Shown piece after piece: positions 1-44,283 of a stretch of DNA of 48,622 nt. Origin of the DNA: a candidate division WWE3 bacterium RBG_19FT_COMBO_53_11 (GTDB taxonomy: Bacteria; Patescibacteriota; WWE3; 9FT-COMBO-53-11); contig MEUW01000021.1 in the NCBI GenBank assembly GCA_001772805.1, positions 61,167-109,788 on the forward strand. Direction: 5' to 3'. Every line of letters starts with the position of its first letter. Positions within the stretch are counted from its first letter, which is position 1. The notes under the pieces were generated by a model, which saw only the letters and a program-made list of their open reading frames with translations, was not told where the DNA came from and did not search any database. A program made the translations under genes and the position numbers.

Positions 1-696
1 TACTACCAGCGTCGCCAACGGCCCTTGCTGGGAAGAAAGCGAGGATTCGATCACCACCGCTGCCAGCTCCGCTTCCGCTTCGCTCTTCAGCTCCATAAGA
101 TCGGCCGATAAGCCAATGATCTCCAAAAGCTCCGGCACGCCGGCGCCGGTCTTGGCCGAAACCGCCACTGCAGGAACTTTACCGCCTTGATCCTCAACCA
201 CCACTCCCTCCTTTGCCAGTTGGCCTTTTACCTTGGTGAGATCTTGCGGGGAAGCCAAATCCACCTTGTTGATCGCCACGACCAAAGGAACCTCGGCGGC
301 TTTCGCGTGAGCGATCGCTTCGACCGTTTGGGGCTTCACTCCGTCGTTCGCCGCGACAACCAGAACCGCCAAATCCGCCACCCCCGCCCCCCGCTGCCGC
401 ATCTTGGAAAAAGCTTCGTGCCCGGGAGTGTCAATGAAAGTAATCCGCCGGCCGGAAGGCTCAGCAACCTGGTAGGCCCCGATTTTTTGGGTAATTCCGC
501 CGGCTTCCTTCGCGGCTACATCGATGGGACGGACGGACGACCCGCTTTCAGCGGACCTAGCATTAAACGCTTCGCGTCTAATGTAATCTAAAAGAGTCGT
601 CTTCCCGTGATCGATATGTCCGAGGACAACGACGATGGGAGGACGGGTAGCGACATTAGCTCGCTGGATTTTCGGATGCTCCTGTTTTTTGGACAT
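1..696 (-). CDS. infB: Translation initiation factor IF-2, partial (C-terminal part beyond left edge)
   Basis: IF-2 is the GTPase that places initiator tRNA on the 30S subunit and promotes subunit joining. The 232 visible codons show the P-loop GHIDHGKT at residues 26-33, EAGGIT (switch I) near 64-69, DTPGH at 89-93 and NKVD at 143-146. The G domain starts almost at the N-terminus, so the usual long N-terminal domains are absent, a short form fitting a reduced genome. The ATG at 696 overlaps the end of nusA by 41 bp, implying translational coupling. About 16 residues (roughly 41-57) between LLDYIR and the switch I motif have no counterpart in the E. coli protein; they are encoded by a dispersed palindromic repeat inserted in frame. 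The stop codon lies outside the window. Confidence 0.95.
535..583 (+). repeat. Palindromic element (two-hairpin form) in frame within infB
   Basis: A GAC...TAG hairpin (535-564) is followed by a second hairpin with arms CATTA/TAATG (561-583). It accounts for the extra residues of IF-2 just before switch I. The same two-hairpin composite occurs at 43078-43125 and 48028-48073. Confidence 0.85.
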
Positions 697-2020: not shown

Positions 2021-2092
2021 TTAGAAAGAAGGGGCTAACTCGGTCAGCAATTGCGAAAGGTGCCTTACCTGCGGGACGACCACCGCATAATT
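2021..2092 (-). pseudogene. Duplicated remnant of the hrcA 3' end (24 codons including stop)
   Basis: On the minus strand these 72 nt encode exactly the same 23 C-terminal residues (NYAVVV...ELAPSF) and stop as the intact hrcA at 2129-2200. Yet 20 of 72 bases and 17 of 24 codons differ, every one synonymously. It begins exactly where the palindromic element at 2093-2120 ends. It has no start codon and is not expected to be translated. Confidence 0.9.
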
Positions 2093-2120
2093 GGACGGCT
2101 CGCTTCGCGAACCTAGCATT
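2093..2120 (+). repeat. Palindromic GAC/TAG element between hrcA and its 3'-end remnant
   Basis: It begins GGACGG and ends CCTAGCATT around the stem CTCGC/GCGA. It occupies most of the 36 nt between the functional hrcA stop codon and the duplicated 3' end, with its GGACGG end abutting the remnant. Confidence 0.85.
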
Positions 2121-2128
2121 TATCCCGA

Positions 2129-2857
2129 TTAAAAGGAAGGAGCTAATTCAGTTAGGAGTTGGGATAAATGACGGACTTGAGGAACGACGACGGCATAATT
2201 GAGGCGGGCCGGTCCCAAAATCGCCACCACCCCACCCTTCTGTCCGTTGCCCCAGTGCGCAAAAACCAAACCGACCGGCTCTAAATTAGCCACTCCCAAT
2301 TCCCGTCCGATCAAAACCGTTACGGCTTTGGGGTCCGAAGCCCGGGAGAAAAGATCCTGCAGAAGATCGTAGCTATCCAAGAGATTCAGCGCCGCCCGGG
2401 TCACATTGATATCAAAGAATTCGGGATGCTCCAAAACATTTTTGGTCCCGGCGTGGTAAACCGTTCCCTCGTGAGTCGTCACAATCCCGATGTAGCCGAC
2501 GGCTTCCGCCAGAGCCAGTGCCGCCTCCCTCAACATCCGCCCGGCGCTCTGGCGGTATTGAAAAAGCCGTTGTTTGAGCGCGACTTCTTGCAAAACCGGC
2601 AAGGCCTGTTCCTGCATTAGAGTAGTGAGGTAATAGCGCAATCCCAGTTCGGACGGTTGACGGCCGGCGGAAGAGTGCTCCTTTTCGATAAATCCTTCTT
2701 GATGAAGAACTGCCATCTCGTTACGCACGGTTGCCGGAGAGAAAGCAAACTGGCGTTTTTCGGTCAGTTCCTCCGAACCCACCGGCTGGGCGCCGGCGAT
2801 AAATTCTTCAATGATCGCTTTCAAAATCTCGACTTGTCTTGCAGTAAGTTCCGCCAC
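2129..2857 (-). CDS. hrcA: Heat-inducible transcription repressor HrcA
   Basis: HrcA represses chaperone operons by binding CIRCE operators. The 242-aa protein starts with a winged-helix DNA-binding region (residues 1-70, with SPATVRNEM and GFIEKEHSSAGRQPSELGLR), then a compact C-terminal GAF-like region. It is shorter than the usual 340 aa. The GTG start at 2857 has no clear Shine-Dalgarno; a TAAAAT box nearby suggests a leaderless mRNA. I found no full CIRCE repeat in the window. The last 24 codons are duplicated downstream as a synonymously diverged remnant separated by a palindromic element, implying replacement or duplication of the 3' end. Confidence 0.9.
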   Translation of the reverse strand: MAELTARQVEILKAIIEEFIAGAQPVGSEELTEKRQFAFSPATVRNEMAVLHQEGFIEKEHSSAGRQPSELGLRYYLTTLMQEQALPVLQEVALKQRLFQYRQSAGRMLREAALALAEAVGYIGIVTTHEGTVYHAGTKNVLEHPEFFDINVTRAALNLLDSYDLLQDLFSRASDPKAVTVLIGRELGVANLEPVGLVFAHWGNGQKGGVVAILGPARLNYAVVVPQVRHLSQLLTELAPSF

Positions 2858-8852: not shown

Positions 8853-8899
8853 TGATTGGTATTTATTCGCGAAGCAAAAAGACGAGTCGGAGACTCTAG
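8851..8899 (+). pseudogene. Truncated duplicate of the pilO-like gene start
   Basis: ATG ATT GGT ATT TAT at 8852-8866 resembles the current start ATG ATT GGC TAT TAT at 8953. The overlap TAATG with the upstream stop looks like the ancestral coupled start. The frame stays open for 15 codons and ends in TAG within the palindromic element. Confidence 0.55.
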
Positions 8900-8903
8900 C
8901 TTT
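8880..8903 (+). repeat. Divergent palindromic GAC/TAG element between the PilN-like and PilO-like genes
   Basis: GAC, stem GAGTC, loop GGA, GACTC, TAG. The stem sequence is unique to this copy, but the GAC/TAG loop is conserved. Another small palindrome (CTTTC...GAAAG) follows directly. Confidence 0.65.
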
Positions 8904-8952
8904 CTTAACGAAAGGGCAACCTGAGCGTTAGCGAAGGGAAGCACTATTAACA

Positions 8953-19137: not shown

Positions 19138-19243
19138 GGACGGCTCGGCTCCGCCGAACCTAGCATTCTGAAGGAATGAACGGCTCGGCTCCGCCGAACC
19201 TAGCATTCTGAAGGAATGAACGGCTCGGCTCCGCCGAACCTAG
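19138..19243 (+). repeat. Three tandem palindromic GAC/TAG-type elements, 40-bp period
   Basis: Three copies begin GGACGG or GAACGG, pair CTCGGC with GCCGA and end CCTAG. The two linkers are identical (CATTCTGAAGGAATG), themselves palindromic. The array starts 3 nt after the 3D-protein stop codon. Confidence 0.9.
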
Positions 19244-30366: not shown

Positions 30367-31257
30367 ATGCCCCCTACTAATCACGAACGGGAAAAGAACA
30401 TCGGCATCGCCGCCTTTCTAAACATTCTTTTCACGTTTATTGAGTTAATCGGCGGAATTTGGACCAACAGTTTGGCAATCCTCTCCGACGCCCTTCACGA
30501 CCTCGGCGACAGCATTTTCCTAATCACCTCGTGGATCGCGGAAAAACAGGCGCGGAAGAAACCCGATATCCGCCGCACCTTCGGCTATCAGCGCCTTTCC
30601 CTCCTGGCGGCGCTCTTCAGCGCGGTCGCGCTCGCCAGCGGTTCTCTCTTTATCCTTTCGCAAGCCATCCCCCGCCTCCTCAATCCGACCCCGGTTTATG
30701 CGGAAGGGATGATGGCTCTGGCAGTCGTCGGAATTATCTTCAACGGCGCCGGCCTTTGGCGGTTGAAGCGGGGCCACAGTTTAAACGAACGGATCTTGAG
30801 CTGGCATCTGCTCGAGGATGTGCTGGGATGGGGCGTTATCCTGGTAGGAGCAACCATCATCCATTTCAGCGGGCTTTACATTTTAGACCCGATTCTGACT
30901 CTGTTGTATTCGATCGTGATTATCATCGGAGTTTCGCGGAATCTCAAAGAGCTAATTAATATTCTTCTGCAGGGCGTGCCGGCGCACATCGAGCTGGATC
31001 ACGTTAAAGAAGGGCTGTTGAAAATCCCCGGCGTAGTCGGGGCGCACGACCTCCACGTCTGGTCGCTGGAGGGAGAAACCGATATCTTTACCGGCCACAT
31101 CGTCGTGGAGGAGAAACTTCTCCAAGACTCCGACCACACCCGTCAACTGATCAAAGAGGAGCTCACCCGCCACCACATTGAGTATTCGACGGTTGAGCTG
31201 GAAAGCAAAGACTTCTGTTCGGGAATCGAGTGCCGAATTCCCCAAATCCCGGGTTAG
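30367..31257 (+). CDS. Cation diffusion facilitator, zinc-type (CzcD/ZitB-like)
   Basis: CDF proteins are proton-driven antiporters exporting Zn2+ and related ions. 296 aa with six membrane helices in the first 200 residues and a cytoplasmic C-terminal domain. The transport site shows HD-HD motifs typical of zinc: LSDALHDLGDS in TM2 and SWHLLEDVLGW in TM5. The C-terminal domain has VVGAHDLHVWSLEG. The ATG at 30367 has only a weak RBS. It may belong to the metal-homeostasis theme of the csoR cluster upstream, but has separate control. Confidence 0.92.
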   Translation: MPPTNHEREKNIGIAAFLNILFTFIELIGGIWTNSLAILSDALHDLGDSIFLITSWIAEKQARKKPDIRRTFGYQRLSLLAALFSAVALASGSLFILSQAIPRLLNPTPVYAEGMMALAVVGIIFNGAGLWRLKRGHSLNERILSWHLLEDVLGWGVILVGATIIHFSGLYILDPILTLLYSIVIIIGVSRNLKELINILLQGVPAHIELDHVKEGLLKIPGVVGAHDLHVWSLEGETDIFTGHIVVEEKLLQDSDHTRQLIKEELTRHHIEYSTVELESKDFCSGIECRIPQIPG

Positions 31258-34115
31258 CGGTACCGGCCGGCTTCGGAGAAATCGCAGATCTGATTGAACG
31301 GGCACCAAACGCACTGCGGCCCGGGAGTCGCTTTGAAATCACCCCGGACGATCTTTTGAATCCGCTCCTCGATCTCGGCAGTTCTCTTCCTAATCTCCGC
31401 CTCGTCAAAGGAGGCCTCAATTTTCTTACCCCCGTCCAAATAAAACAGGGCCACCGACTTCGGCACGATTCCCAGCGCCTCCTTTGCCGCAAGGGTATAC
31501 AGGAAGAGCTGATCTTCTTTCTGCGCTTTCTTAGTAAGCTGCTCCTCTTCCTTCTGCCCGGTATCCCCGCCCTTAAAATCAATTAGCTCAAACTCGCCGG
31601 CGGCGTTCTTACCAATCCGGTCAATCCGCCCCGCAATTGTTTTCCCTCCCAGCTTGATCTCAAATCCCTTTTCCACCATAAAGGGAGAAAAAAGACGCTT
31701 TTGGTATTTTTGGTAAAAATCGGTTAGCAACTTCTTGCCCCTCAAGAAATAGGCCTCCTTCTCCTTCCGATCGCGGTAGCCCCCGACGAGAAAATGCTCG
31801 CGATACATCTTCAGGAATTGCCTCAAAGCCACCTTTTCTCCCTTGATCCACCGCATCTCAAATTCCCGCAGGGTTTCGTGCAGGGAAATCCCAAAGCTCG
31901 TGGGAGGAGTCGGCGGAGCCGGAAGCCGCAACACATACTTGTAGCGGTACTTCCACGGGCAGGTTTTGTAATCCTCGAGCTGCGAGTAGGACAGCTTCTC
32001 GGGCACAAAGAGCGTCAGATCAGGTTCCCTCTTCCCGGAATCTTTGATTTCGGGAATTTCGACCGAAAATTGGGCCTGCGGTTCCGCAGGAACCTCCATC
32101 CCCAGTTCAAAGATAAAGGGTGAAGGCCGCTTTTCTTGGACACCCCCGTAGCTTTTGGCATAGGAAAGAAAAAGCTGCTCTGAAGCGCGAGTGGCGCCCA
32201 CGTAGAAAAGTCGCCTCTCCTCCTGCTGATGTCCAATTCTTTCGGGATCCTCTCCGTGAGATTTCTTCAGATAACGGAACTCTTTCACGAAGTGTTCGGG
32301 AAGCTCCAGCGCCGCCGAGCGTTGGCGGGTCGGAAAGCGGTCGGCCGTGAGCGAGACCAAGAAAACCACCGGAAATTCCAAACCCTTAGCGGCGTGGGCC
32401 GTCATCAGGTTGATCGTATCCACGTCTTCAATCACCGCCTGCGCGGGTGACTCTCCCGCTTCGATCAAAAGATCCAAGTAATCCACCAGCTCCGGGACAT
32501 TGGGCTCTTTAACCTCCGCCTCAAATTGTTGAATCTTTTGGAAAAACAGCGCAATGTTTTCAATCTTGAGCTGGTTCTCAAGGGTAGGCGGCTCTTCGAG
32601 ATTTTTGATGTAGCCGCTCTTCCGCACGAAATCAAAAAGGAGGTGCGAGGGGGAAACGCGAAAAGCGTCCTTCGCTAAGTCGTGGATTACGTCCAAGGCT
32701 TTGATCTTCTCCCGGACTAAGATTTCGGCGAGGGGAATACTCTCTTTTTGGGCGGTTGCCAAAAGTTGGAGGGTTTGCTCAGGCGGGATTTTGAAGGCCG
32801 GGATGTTTAAAACTTTGTACCACGAAATATTGTCGGTGGGATCTTTGATCACACGCAAAACCGCCAAGAGCGCGGCCACTTCCTCTTGCTCAAAGAGCCC
32901 ACGGTTGCCTACGATTTGGAAAGGCAGTTCGTGGCGCTTCAACGCCGCGATAAATGGGTCAAGATGGGCGTTCGCCCGGGCGAGAATCGCGAAGTCGGAA
33001 AAGTTTTTTCCCTCGGTGTTCACCAACTCGACAATCTTGCGCAAGACCAGTTCCGTCTCCTCTTCCGCCGATCTCGCGTATAGCAAGGTCGGCTCGGGTC
33101 CGGTCTTGAGAGTCTTGAGTTCTTTCGAGACGTCTTTAAGCCTTACCTCCAGCCGATCGGGGTTATTGTTTTTTATCATCCGATATGACCTTTGCGCCAG
33201 CGTATCGGTAAGTCGGTAAGAAGTCTTAAGGACGCTGGTTCGGCAAGCGGGGTAGTACTTTTTGAACTCCAGGATGTTGGAAACGCTCGCTCCGCGCCAT
33301 TTATATATCGCCTGATCGTCGTCACCCACAACCGTCAGGTTGCTAGGTCCGGCATTGGAACCGGGCCGTCCAACCGTCAGGTTGCCAGGTCCAGCTCTTG
33401 CGCCTTTTGGGGCAAGAAGTTTGACGAGGGAGAACTGGGCCGAGTTCGTATCTTGGAACTCATCCACAAAAATGAACTTGAATTGGTCTTGGTATTTTTT
33501 GAGGATACTGGACCTTTGCCTGAACAACTTTGTTGTCCAATAGATAAGATCCCCGAAATCCAAATATGAGTTCTTCAAAAGCAGCTTTTGGTATGCTTCG
33601 TAGGACCGAGCGAGTTCTAATTGTTTGCGGGCTTCCTCTTTTTCATCTTTGCTTTTTGATTTTTGATATTTGACCTTCGCCCAAGCGAGATATTCGCTTG
33701 GAATAATCTCCTCGTCCTTGGCGCGAGAAAATAAATTGAGCAGAGCGCTTAAAAATTTGGTCGGGTTTCCCAACGGGCGGTAATAATTCAAGGGAAGGTC
33801 ATAAAGATGCTGGCGCAAGAGCAGCCACGCCTTAGGCTCGGAAAGAATTTTGTAAGCCGGGTCCATTCCGATCTCCAACCCCTCTTGCCGAAGAATCCGG
33901 TCGCAAAAAGAATGGAAGGTTGAGATCCACGGCGGTTCATATCCCAATGGCATCGCCTCATCCAGTCTCCCCAACATCTCCTGGGTGGCCTTATCGGTAA
34001 AGGTTAAAGCAAGGATTTGGGAAGGATCCACTCCCTTATCCAACAGCTTGCGGATTTCGTTGGTAATAAAGGTCGTCTTTCCCGTACCGGGCCCGGCAAC
34101 GACGAGGTTAATCAT
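31254..34115 (-). CDS. UvrD-like helicase fused to a PD-(D/E)XK (RecB/Cas4-like) nuclease
   Basis: 953 aa. Helicase motifs: VAGPGTGKTTF (I), ALTFTDKATQEM (Ia), VDEFQDTNSAQ (II), VVGDDDQAIYKWRGA (III), TAHAAKGLEFPVVF (V) and YVGATRASEQLF (VI). The C-terminal 250 residues carry a nuclease domain (KLSYSQLEDYKTCPWKYRYK, ELIDFKGG) and terminal Cys residues (CVWCPFNQIC) that with CPWKY could form a 4Fe-4S cluster as in AddB/Cas4. It probably processes double-strand breaks. Fourteen extra residues before motif III come from an in-frame palindromic element with a 14-bp flanking repeat. The ATG at 34115 lies about 10 nt after TATAGT, so the mRNA is probably leaderless. Confidence 0.9.
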   Translation of the reverse strand: MINLVVAGPGTGKTTFITNEIRKLLDKGVDPSQILALTFTDKATQEMLGRLDEAMPLGYEPPWISTFHSFCDRILRQEGLEIGMDPAYKILSEPKAWLLLRQHLYDLPLNYYRPLGNPTKFLSALLNLFSRAKDEEIIPSEYLAWAKVKYQKSKSKDEKEEARKQLELARSYEAYQKLLLKNSYLDFGDLIYWTTKLFRQRSSILKKYQDQFKFIFVDEFQDTNSAQFSLVKLLAPKGARAGPGNLTVGRPGSNAGPSNLTVVGDDDQAIYKWRGASVSNILEFKKYYPACRTSVLKTSYRLTDTLAQRSYRMIKNNNPDRLEVRLKDVSKELKTLKTGPEPTLLYARSAEEETELVLRKIVELVNTEGKNFSDFAILARANAHLDPFIAALKRHELPFQIVGNRGLFEQEEVAALLAVLRVIKDPTDNISWYKVLNIPAFKIPPEQTLQLLATAQKESIPLAEILVREKIKALDVIHDLAKDAFRVSPSHLLFDFVRKSGYIKNLEEPPTLENQLKIENIALFFQKIQQFEAEVKEPNVPELVDYLDLLIEAGESPAQAVIEDVDTINLMTAHAAKGLEFPVVFLVSLTADRFPTRQRSAALELPEHFVKEFRYLKKSHGEDPERIGHQQEERRLFYVGATRASEQLFLSYAKSYGGVQEKRPSPFIFELGMEVPAEPQAQFSVEIPEIKDSGKREPDLTLFVPEKLSYSQLEDYKTCPWKYRYKYVLRLPAPPTPPTSFGISLHETLREFEMRWIKGEKVALRQFLKMYREHFLVGGYRDRKEKEAYFLRGKKLLTDFYQKYQKRLFSPFMVEKGFEIKLGGKTIAGRIDRIGKNAAGEFELIDFKGGDTGQKEEEQLTKKAQKEDQLFLYTLAAKEALGIVPKSVALFYLDGGKKIEASFDEAEIRKRTAEIEERIQKIVRGDFKATPGPQCVWCPFNQICDFSEAGRYR
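33341..33371 (-). repeat. Palindromic GAC/TAG element in frame within the helicase-nuclease gene
   Basis: On the minus strand: TTG, GAC, GG, stem CCGG/CCGG, A, CC, TAG, CAA. Direct repeats AACCGTCAGGTTGC at 33330-33343 and 33372-33385 flank it. Element plus one repeat is 42 bp, exactly 14 codons. Confidence 0.88.
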
Positions 34116-34143
34116 CAAGAAAAACTATAGCAGTGTTGCCCAA

Positions 34144-42135: not shown

Positions 42136-43062
42136 ATGCTATACCGTTATCTTAAAAATGTGCTCGGAAGCGCCCGCCCTCGGCAGTGGCTCAAAAACTT
42201 AGCTCTCCTCGCCGCTCCATTTTTCAGAGCAGAAATCCTAAACGCCGGAGTGTTGCCCCGATTTATTACCGCCTTCATCGTCTTCTCCCTACTCTCCTCG
42301 GCCGCCTACATTTTCAACGATGTAGTTGATCGAAGCAGGGACCGCCGGCACCCCATCAAGAAAGACCGCCCGATTGCCTCCGGCCGATTCTCGGTTCCGG
42401 CAGCGCTTCTGACGTCGGCAATTCTGGCAACCGGAACTCTCATTTTCGCGGCGGCGAACTTTAACCGCTACTTCTTAGGAACTGCGATCGCTTTCACCGC
42501 CCTCCAGCTAACCTACAGCCTTCTGATCAGGAACGTCATCATTATGGATGCCCTTTGGGTAGCGGCGGCGTTTGTTTTGCGGGTATACGCCGGCGCCTTC
42601 GTTCTGCCGACGCCGATCTCTTCCTGGCTGGTCCTCTCGACGATTGGACTCTCTCTGCTTCTGGCTTTCGGAAAAAGAAGGAGTGAACGTACCTTGCTCT
42701 CCAAACTCCACCGGCGCTTACTCACCCGAGAAACTCTGCGCCACTACCCCGACACGCTCCTGGATTCGATGATCGCAATGTCGGCGACCTACACAACGCT
42801 GGCCTACTCGATCTTCAGCTTCCAAACCTCCCCGACCGGTTCGAAGTTCCTCACCGACCTCCTGCCGGAAACTCTCTCCTCGCCAAAGTGGGCACTCCTA
42901 ACCGTTCCCGTGGTGATCTACGGAGTCGCCCGCTACTTATATATTGTTTACGAGAAAAAGGAGGGGGAGTCGCCGGAGAAGGTAATTTTAACGGACTTGC
43001 CAATCTTGGGAACGGTCGCCGCTTGGGTCATCGCCACCTTTATCATTCTCTATGTTCTCTAA
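42136..43062 (+). CDS. UbiA-family prenyltransferase (decaprenyl-phosphate phosphoribosyltransferase-like)
   Basis: 308 aa, about eight membrane helices. RPRQWLKN near the N-terminus, FNDVVDRSRDRRHPIKKDRPIASG (first Asp-rich motif; about 57-80) and a weaker second motif SKLHRRLLTRETLRHY. This combination resembles the UbiA enzymes that link phosphoribose to polyprenyl phosphate for arabinan synthesis more than quinone prenyltransferases. Together with the upstream GT2 and WecA-type genes, a lipid-linked sugar pathway is plausible. It ends convergent with the remnant of the PEGA-SH3 gene. Confidence 0.82.
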   Translation: MLYRYLKNVLGSARPRQWLKNLALLAAPFFRAEILNAGVLPRFITAFIVFSLLSSAAYIFNDVVDRSRDRRHPIKKDRPIASGRFSVPAALLTSAILATGTLIFAAANFNRYFLGTAIAFTALQLTYSLLIRNVIIMDALWVAAAFVLRVYAGAFVLPTPISSWLVLSTIGLSLLLAFGKRRSERTLLSKLHRRLLTRETLRHYPDTLLDSMIAMSATYTTLAYSIFSFQTSPTGSKFLTDLLPETLSSPKWALLTVPVVIYGVARYLYIVYEKKEGESPEKVILTDLPILGTVAAWVIATFIILYVL

Positions 43063-43166
43063 AGTTTTTTTAGCGTAGGACGGCTCGTCTTTGCCGAACC
43101 TAGAAATATTCGCTTCGCATCTATTTTCACCCGAAACCCAGTCTTCCTCACCCTGAAAGTCAATTT
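43059..43166 (-). pseudogene. Duplicated remnant of the PEGA-SH3 gene 3' end, split by a palindromic element
   Basis: Minus-strand codons read QIDFQGEEDWVSGE (43166-43126) and, after a 48-nt element, YAKK plus Leu and a stop one base out of frame (43077-43059). The intact gene ends KIEFEGKEGWVSSDYSKKL. Eleven of 19 positions are identical and the rest mostly conservative. An extra A in a seven-A run breaks the frame. It abuts the GGACGG end of the element at 43167. Confidence 0.82.
43078..43125 (+). repeat. Palindromic GAC/TAG element (two-hairpin form) within the gene remnant
   Basis: A GAC, GG...CC, TAG hairpin is followed by a second hairpin (AATATTCGCTTCGCATCTATT reduced to arms AATA/TATT). 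It closely matches the composite at 48028-48073 and splits the remnant between its Glu and Tyr codons. Confidence 0.85.
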
Positions 43167-43190
43167 GGACGGCCGCTCCGCGACCTAGCA
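43167..43190 (+). repeat. Palindromic GAC/TAG element after the PEGA-SH3 gene
   Basis: G, GAC, GG, stem CCGC/GCG, A, CC, TAG, C. The flanking TTT and AAA extend the pairing. It separates the intact gene end from the duplicated remnant. Confidence 0.85.
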
Positions 43191-43215: not shown

Positions 43216-44283
43216 CTACAGCTTTTTTGAATAGTCCGAGGAGACCCAACCTTCTTTCCCCTCGAATTCGATTTTGTACCAACCGCTCTGCTCTCCAAGA
43301 TAAATGTATTTGGAACCGACGGTCGCTTGGCCGATCTGGCTGTAATTCGTTCCGGGACCGGAGCGGACTTTGAGGTAGCCGATTCCCGTATCCAAGATCT
43401 GTACCTTAGGAGAAGCCGGATAGAGTTTGGCGGCGAGAGATTTCAGCATGGTAGAACCGGCCGAACTCAAAGACCCCGGTGTCTCCCCTAGGTATCCCAC
43501 GGTACGTTTTTCGGAAATCTTCGAGAGGGATTCCAGCGAAACCTCCGAGCCGGTGGCATCGTAGAGCTTCCCATCCGCCGTCAGGAAAAAGTCGTAAGTG
43601 AACGGGTTTTCTAATCGCGACATCCAGAAAACCGCCCCCGCCACCCATGAAACCGGATCGGCCGGCAGGACCGAGGATGAGGAAGAGAGGTCTAGCACCG
43701 TCAGACTCGCGTGGGGCGAAGGTAATTTCTGGGAATCGGCCGGAAACGGATCGATTGCCAGATTAGCGGAAACGTTTAGCCGGAACCCTTCCTTAACCGC
43801 GACTTTTATCTTACGGGGAAAATAACCATTCTTCTTAATCTCCAAGTCATATTCCCCAACCGAAAGAGATTTCGATAGCGGGGACTCCCCCAACGACTCA
43901 CCGTTCAGGAAAACCTCCGCCACCGGCCGGGTGATCACCACCAATTCGCTCCCGGTCGATGAATCCGAGAACCACGCCACTTCCCCGCCCGAAAATGTTT
44001 CGGAAGGACCCAGCGTCCAACTCACAACCGTCAAGGCGCCGGCCATCAAACGAACTTTTTGGATAAAATTGCCGAAACTCAGGACGGGATTCCCCTCCTT
44101 CAACTGGTCGGAAAGGTAGGGAGTCGTCCCGACCTCGGCATTATCGAGAAGGACTTTTTGGCCGGAAGGGTCGGAGGAGACCGAAAGCGCGGCGTTTTTG
44201 CCCACAGCGCCACTTAAGTAAACGGTGAAAACCAAGACTGCCACAATCGCAAGAATAATTAAACCGCGGAATTTCCTCAGCAC
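43216..44283 (-). CDS. Membrane-anchored PEGA-domain and SH3b-domain protein
   Basis: 355 aa: N-terminal membrane helix (about 7-26), a PEGA domain (SVSSDPSGQKVLLDNAEVGTTP), a second PEGA (ITRPVAEVFLNGESLGESPL...YDLEIKKNGYFPRKI), a beta-rich middle region, and a C-terminal bacterial SH3 (GYLKVRSGPGTNYSQIGQ...GWYKIEFEGKEGWVSSDY). SH3b domains often bind peptidoglycan, and PEGA repeats occur in surface proteins. Expected outside the cell. Its 3' end is duplicated downstream in degenerate form next to palindromic elements. Confidence 0.85.
   Translation of the reverse strand: MLRKFRGLIILAIVAVLVFTVYLSGAVGKNAALSVSSDPSGQKVLLDNAEVGTTPYLSDQLKEGNPVLSFGNFIQKVRLMAGALTVVSWTLGPSETFSGGEVAWFSDSSTGSELVVITRPVAEVFLNGESLGESPLSKSLSVGEYDLEIKKNGYFPRKIKVAVKEGFRLNVSANLAIDPFPADSQKLPSPHASLTVLDLSSSSSVLPADPVSWVAGAVFWMSRLENPFTYDFFLTADGKLYDATGSEVSLESLSKISEKRTVGYLGETPGSLSSAGSTMLKSLAAKLYPASPKVQILDTGIGYLKVRSGPGTNYSQIGQATVGSKYIYLGEQSGWYKIEFEGKEGWVSSDYSKKL

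Follow-up and report, generated by a model that had tools for sequence, protein, structure and literature searches.

The duplicated 3′-end of hrcA raises the question of how a gene can come to have a second ending that spells the same residues in largely different codons. In the window, by which we mean the whole 48,622-nt stretch that was analyzed, this end is present twice, 108 nt apart, once attached to the heat-shock repressor gene (copy 1) and once severed from it (copy 2; Table 1). Both copies encode NYAVVVPQVRHLSQLLTELAPSF and a stop, an identical run of 23 residues, and they differ at 20 of 72 bases spread over 17 of the 24 codons (17 third-position and 3 first-position differences; 11 transitions and 9 transversions), none of them non-synonymous, which bears out what an earlier sequence-only reading had reported. 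The probability of 20 all-synonymous changes is ~1.6e-12 if both copies are assumed to be unconstrained, and ~1.3e-6 if just 10 of the 20 fell on an unconstrained copy 2. Because copy 2 has hardly decayed and is intact in all 23 residues while copy 1 differs from it at 17 of 24 codons, and because of the low probability of ten such changes on a freely drifting copy 2, we find it most likely that the divergence of the two ends is older than the insertion event, as that reading had also argued.

Codon usage and relatives, which the sequence-only reading had proposed to compare, both bear on which end is native. GC3 is 0.62 in copy 2, in agreement with 0.61 in the hrcA body (133/219), and does not agree in copy 1 (0.29), whose count of 7 compares with at least 9 in every 24-codon window of the body. 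The hrcA gene of the nearest relative (G001) has a single 3′-end, with the element described below absent there, and the two copies are about equally distant from it, sharing 41/66 (severed) and 38/66 (replacement) bases. Because of this equal distance, copy 2 is taken to be native on the grounds of its composition and of its adjoining the downstream sequence; composition at hrcA, together with homology at an SH3-domain gene, indicates that the severed copy is likely the native end. This genome contains no second full hrcA as a possible donor of the end, copy-1-type DNA had no match in 44 other genomes of the class, and a GTDB scan for close hrcA relatives returned G001 only and no donor of the copy-1 end.

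One source of a second end would be local, an exact copy of the hrcA end of which the attached copy, held in a hairpin loop, mutated much faster than the severed one under purifying selection. At hrcA, copy 1 would have had to take on ~20 changes and copy 2 hardly any, all without altering an amino acid. The mixture of transitions and transversions does not have a deaminase pattern, and deaminase-type mutation of the copy was rejected for this reason. Other sites provide evidence on both sides, and overall we regard local duplication followed by fast drift as rather unlikely.

Table 1. Positions of hrcA, its two ends, and further element sites in the window
Feature	Position	Strand	Basis or remark
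hrcA, heat-shock repressor gene, putative hybrid (native body and replacement end)	2129–2857	−	ORF; Pfam HrcA PF01628, E 1.5e-17; G001 protein 78% identical
Copy 1 (D′), replacement 3′-end attached to hrcA	2129–2200	−	GC3 7/24
Copy 2 (D), severed, apparently native hrcA 3′-end with stop codon	2021–2092	−	GC3 15/24, gene-body-like
Whole 108-nt insert: GACG-hairpin 1-CTAG, T*-loop-T′, and rest of new end	2094–2201	+	ends in the same GCATAATTG that precedes it
Element core X, GACG-hairpin 1-CTAG, GACGGCTCGCTTCGCGAACCTAG	2094–2116	+	near-identical copies elsewhere in genome
T*, left arm of hairpin 2, CATTTATCCC	2117–2126	+	pairing; RNA fold of minus strand
T′, right arm of hairpin 2, GGGATAAATG, within coding part of copy 1	2161–2170	+	10-mer complement within 80 nt by chance ~8e-5
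Target repeat GCATAATTG, severed side	2085–2093	+	sequence; second copy at 2193–2201
Element at nusA start: core X (1867–1890), then CATTTT-aagaagaa-AAAATG re-supplying ATG of ORF 656–1849	1847–1890	−	sequence
In-frame element in infB, with ~15 extra residues between DYIRR and DVAAKEAGG	527–590	+	absent from G001 infB
Element core at 3′-end of SH3/PEGA-domain gene (43216–44283, minus), second coding-end case in window	43168–43188	+	sequence; domain matches
Replacement end of SH3 gene, KIEFEGKEGWVSSDYSKKL-stop	43216–43275	−	flank comparison in translation
Severed end of SH3 gene, native by homology, QIDFQGEEDWVSGEN..YAKK, split by earlier in-frame element (43079–43103), 1-nt insertion	43059–43167	−	sequence; G001 comparison

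A two-hairpin insert and its copies in the genome

The sequence-only reading had placed a palindromic element between the two hrcA ends. The palindrome is present, yet the element is longer than 36 nt, since a second hairpin extends from it into copy 1. The arms of hairpin 2 pair at 10 of 10 positions, the right arm lying inside copy 1, and its loop contains the stop codon and last codons of that copy. Both hairpins appear in an RNA fold of the minus strand, and neither the RNA nor the DNA fold of the insert was more stable overall than those of shuffled sequences. The 108 nt hold only the hrcA end and the two hairpins and encode no homing endonuclease. Because the insert is bounded by the direct repeat, its conserved first motif is GACG and not GGACGG, the motif that had been put at the duplication boundary.

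A genome search and a script found 102 copies of GACG-stem-loop-stem-CTAG in ~553 kb of sequence, consisting of stretches around elements and amounting to about 5/6 of the 659-kb total. The repeat takes the form T, then GACG-hairpin 1-CTAG, then T*-loop-T′, in which T* and T′ are complementary and T′ is commonly a repeat of T, the sequence to the left of the element. GACG and CTAG are fixed motifs, the G that closes GACG forms a pair with the C of CTAG, and stems are mostly 5 to 8 bp. The linkers are likewise fixed, and the stem varies with matching changes, which is no independent test of pairing because the search itself required it. Hairpin 2 scored at least 4.5 in 85 of the 102 elements versus ~10% of 400 random positions. 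A strict form of the pattern matched 32 times in this genome, once in G001, once in G017 (lacking a comparable stem), and nowhere in 39 other genomes searched, with almost no matches in a reversed control. The single G001 copy shows the full T-X-T*-T′ architecture, with GTTTG followed by GACGG..CCTAG and then CAAAC..GTTTG. At hrcA, nusA, and infB, the element is absent from G001, and from these empty sites we infer that it is mobile. The 36 pattern matches in viral contigs, none with a paired stem, were judged to be chance.

Tandem arrays of the element are common. Examples lie at window 19139–19243, L088 1135–1283, L092 5362–5426, and L093 2071–2169, and several end in a terminator-like hairpin. 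A further repeat of ~70 nt, GACGAG..CTCTAGCTTTC..GAAAGGGCAAC..AGCACTT, occurs at window 8881–8950, L064 1639, L075 1986, and L082 ~2680, and looks like a compound of the element and a second unit. An element also lies in frame within a UvrD-type helicase ORF (31254–34118) at window 33343–33370 on the minus strand. The exact 14-nt duplication CAACCTGACGGTTG around it gives NLTV-GRPGSNAGPS-NLTV in translation and is a point in favor of local copying.

The source of these structures is one MAG, placed in WWE3 (Katanobacteria) by its named relatives and 85.6% complete in 24 contigs, with N runs of which one falls in the relic of dnaB, raising the concern that the assembler joined two strains. However, the stretch shared at the joins (9 to 10 nt at hrcA) is shorter than assemblers need, many contigs and the separate MAG G001 show this architecture, and the element sits within open frames in the UvrD-type gene and infB. 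We therefore consider an assembly artefact very improbable.

Replacement at other gene ends, start codons, and tRNAs

Recurrence was tested by comparing the left and right flanks of elements in translation and scoring them against a control, in which the maximum was 42. The hrcA ends scored 118, the top value also in a wider scan, followed by dnaB at 50 and the SH3-domain gene at 47. The remaining high scores came from tandem units, tRNA arrays, a modular protein, and one further match (L093 5116; 46). Several candidates were rejected: an apparent 5′ duplication at window 26512 (MKSC..) was judged to be two unrelated genes, L092 3232 consists of repeats of the modular protein, the matches at L108 and L121 reflect a similar leader-and-gene arrangement and a repeated stretch rather than severed ends, and those in tRNA arrays are look-alikes that arise in translation because tRNA genes are alike.

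At dnaB, the SH3-domain gene, and the 5′-end of fusA, the severed end is re-supplied, diverged, in the loop of hairpin 2, and in the first two T* is a better match to the beginning of the new end than to the old end. The severed and replacement ends of the SH3 gene are identical at 36/56 nt. Against G001, they do about equally well over their whole length (37/56 severed, 38/56 replacement); in the final stretch, the severed end is identical at 17/17 nt apart from one inserted base and the attached end at 12/17, a homology that shows the severed end to be the native one. Past the new stop codon, the sequence is unlike the native downstream sequence, which argues against local drift. The dnaB region reads attached end ..FRGDRTKFYESETNR-stop, element, FRGDRTKF, 43 N, and DRTKFYEFDTSREN-stop, and the attached and first severed FRGDRTK copies differ at 7/23 nt, all synonymously. 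At fusA, the order is old start MVEEKFPQ, element, and new start MAEEKLSQK, compared with MVEEKLSQ in G001; the flank score of 40 is within the control range, and the case rests on homology to G001. The severed fusA start has changed residues, and the two copies differ from G001 similarly (identity 19/24 severed, 18/24 replacement), as local drift would have it. Across the four protein cases, all of them short, about four-fifths of the residues agree, by our estimate roughly the level between this genome and G001.

The element also stands before start codons. Of 28 start-type elements, 20 directly precede an ORF of at least 60 aa whose ATG, the second one, is the end of T′; a ribosome site and ATG are re-supplied at these 20 start codons. 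The genes include nusA as well as rplT, pheS, and rsmH, the latter three named from their N-termini only. The excess resemblance between replacement and severed ribosome sites drops to p 0.05 to 0.07 without the shared T stretch. Some start-type elements (L088 9750–9850, L089 17120–17190) read as short ORFs, such as MDGRRNDLAF, before the real start codon, and these might act as leader peptides. A candidate 5′ case is the start of a HAD-family gene at L092 ~1840–1945, where ATGAACGTTGTG (MNVV) precedes the first unit and ATGAAAGCAGTA (MKAV..IFDLDG) follows the second.

Whole tRNAs are found in the same position as the gene ends. An intact tRNA-Lys(CTT) lies between CTTTGCAGG and CCTGCAAAG, flanked by both halves of an older, split tRNA-Lys; the corresponding place in G001 holds one tRNA-Lys, with tRNA-His and two tRNA-Arg as neighbors. 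Complete tRNA-Val genes are nested in the anticodon arms of other tRNAs at L082 2485–2600 and L083 6430–6550, with the right inverted arm beginning at the CCA end or 1 nt past it. In putative tRNA D-loops, elements occupy the same place, after GG (L064 3649–3672, L082 2431–2453, L083 6391–6413), and an old tRNA at L082 is split by two insertions with its stems still paired. L074 12703 has a second copy of a tRNA 5′-end that differs by one change, which favors local copying. The tRNA-Lys cargo points the same way, since it closely resembles the old local tRNA.

Removal of the element from RNA, either intron-like or by ribosome bypass, with both ends used and conserved, would keep both hrcA copies free of amino-acid change and would be in keeping with the elements that sit in tRNA D-loops without loss of tRNA stems. 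However, the stop codon within copy 1 makes such removal unnecessary; the severed SH3 end with its 1-nt insertion and the severed fusA start with its changed residues look as relics should; and Rfam matches at the curated gathering score in the whole window comprise just one tRNA and no family for the element. This makes RNA-level removal scarcely credible. Homologous or homology-assisted recombination, by which the hrcA end of a relative and the element downstream of it were joined illegitimately, would make the element a passenger or break point rather than the agent. Known processes would then account for the pre-diverged end, and the joins share only 4 to 10 nt. Against this, the junctions coincide at each site with the same points of the element, T* and T′ enclose the new end, and the same geometry recurs at start codons and tRNAs. 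Replacement by a homologous allele, one of two origins offered by the sequence-only reading, may have been the source of the new end but cannot alone explain a fixed architecture everywhere; we hold recombination without an active element to be quite improbable.

Origin of the replacement ends and relation to known systems

The other origin proposed in that reading, insertion of an element together with a recoded gene end, is the best fit, given that hairpin 2 includes the new end and that the arrangement recurs at dnaB, the SH3 gene, fusA, start codons, and tRNA-Lys. On balance, we favor a lineage-specific, mobile, double-hairpin (REP-like) element whose insertions would carry pre-diverged replacement ends. 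The 108 nt at hrcA would be one copy of this non-coding element, consisting of GACG-hairpin 1-CTAG and then T*-loop-T′. The element would enter a gene, and the cut-off piece would be supplied anew within the hairpin 2 loop or by way of it, leaving the gene whole; its cargo may be a fresh 3′-end or N-terminus, a ribosome site together with a start codon, or a complete tRNA. The new hrcA end would have been diverged already on arrival, most likely having come from the orthologous gene of a related, unsampled lineage carrying the element at this site, and the outcome would be a hybrid gene with the native end remaining downstream as a relic. On this reading, the ends would be foreign, each would have arrived as part of a single cassette, and the transfers would be recent.

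The origin of the ends was tested at hrcA, dnaB, the SH3 gene, and fusA. Because the divergence at hrcA most likely came first, this genome has no hrcA paralogue, and about four-fifths of the residues agree, near the level between this genome and G001, ends from a related lineage are favored, as in the mORF hybrids of fungi, and we believe that this is probably where they came from. Several observations speak against it. No donor was found in the 44 other genomes of the class or in the GTDB scan, a donor saturated with codon changes should show at least some differences among the 23 residues (p ~0.004 at 79% identity and 0.09 at 90%), the GC3 of copy 1 fits neither this genome nor G001, and whole-end distances to G001 are about equal for severed and replacement ends at hrcA, the SH3 gene, and fusA, so that nativeness rests on composition, position, and the SH3 tail. 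More tentatively, and with some doubt, we speculate that the element may represent a new class, a gene-less bacterial mobile element that builds hairpin 2 from its target (T/T*/T′) and bears in the loop a functional, recoded replacement for the gene end, ribosome site and start codon, or complete tRNA that the insertion breaks, in effect a minimal natural "cleave and rescue" cassette homing into essential genes.

To our knowledge, the main examples of selfish elements bearing a recoded version of the gene end that they destroy are nuclease-encoding elements of fungal mitochondria and engineered gene drives. The same logic would here be followed by a ~100-nt insert that contains no gene, repeatedly within a single reduced bacterial genome and at essential genes and tRNAs. 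This would account for the tolerance of a small genome to heavy invasion by hairpins and for the origin of hybrid genes in the Candidate Phyla Radiation. Where the replacement ends come from can be tested directly in related genomes.

IS200/IS605-like Y1 transposases and RAYTs act on DNA hairpins. The genome has one Y1_Tnp gene (PF01797, IS200-like; L251 1453–2058) with its own 18-nt inverted repeat, CCAACCCCAGGGGTTGAC / GTCAACCCCTGGGGTTGG, which is unrelated to the element; with this repeat and no element copy in the 3.3-kb locus, the transposase was rejected as mobilizer. Among repetitive palindromes, the REPs of the CGTC-tagged and GTAG-tagged superfamilies, including RPE-4 and RPE-6 of Rickettsia, are described in the excerpted account as 20- to 40-bp palindromes with variable stems and a fixed tetranucleotide, present in high copy and in grouped units and also lying in frame within genes, including several that act in DNA replication or repair (PMC3733652). 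The element resembles the CGTC-tagged REPs as a short palindrome, its core reading CTAG-hairpin-CGTC on the other strand, and shares size, tag, and intragenic habit with them and with the Rickettsia palindromic elements. However, the excerpt defines CGTC-tagged REPs by 8- to 9-bp stems and CCA tails (PMC3733652), whereas the present stems are mostly of 5 to 8 bp with CTAG at the other end. GTAG-tagged REPs, which have a GTAG end and flank a RAYT gene, differ from an element whose fixed motifs are GACG and CTAG. The second hairpin tied to the target and the replacement gene ends are not described for REPs in the excerpted text (PMC3733652).

The double hairpin or repetitive hairpin-forming elements of mitochondria are, according to the excerpted source, non-coding single or double hairpins that invaded small genomes and multiplied there (PMC2800124). 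The likeness lies in two adjacent non-coding hairpins in many copies, hairpin 2 being found in 85 of 102, and in mobility as we read it from the empty sites in G001; the mitochondrial elements differ in being organellar, and replacement of gene ends is not described in that excerpt (PMC2800124).

A close parallel to the gene ends comes from the mORF gene hybrids of fungal mitochondria, known from atp6 of Allomyces and atp6, atp9, cox2, and nad3 of Glomus, in which an insertion brings a diverged C-terminal end that becomes joined to the body of the gene, with the native end left behind downstream (PMC3630166). The two ends of Glomus atp6 share 63.5% of bases and 91% of residues, and the native end matches a close relative (PMC3630166). 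At hrcA, dnaB, and the SH3 gene, a diverged end is likewise fused to the body and the apparently native end displaced downstream. The mORF insert encodes a homing endonuclease and reaches ~1 kb (PMC3630166), whereas the hrcA insert is 108 nt without an enzyme, and the element is bacterial, numbers about 100 copies, and re-supplies start codons and tRNAs as well. Because it encodes no nuclease, the element is not a member of the mORF family, which it resembles in the form of the hybrid genes.
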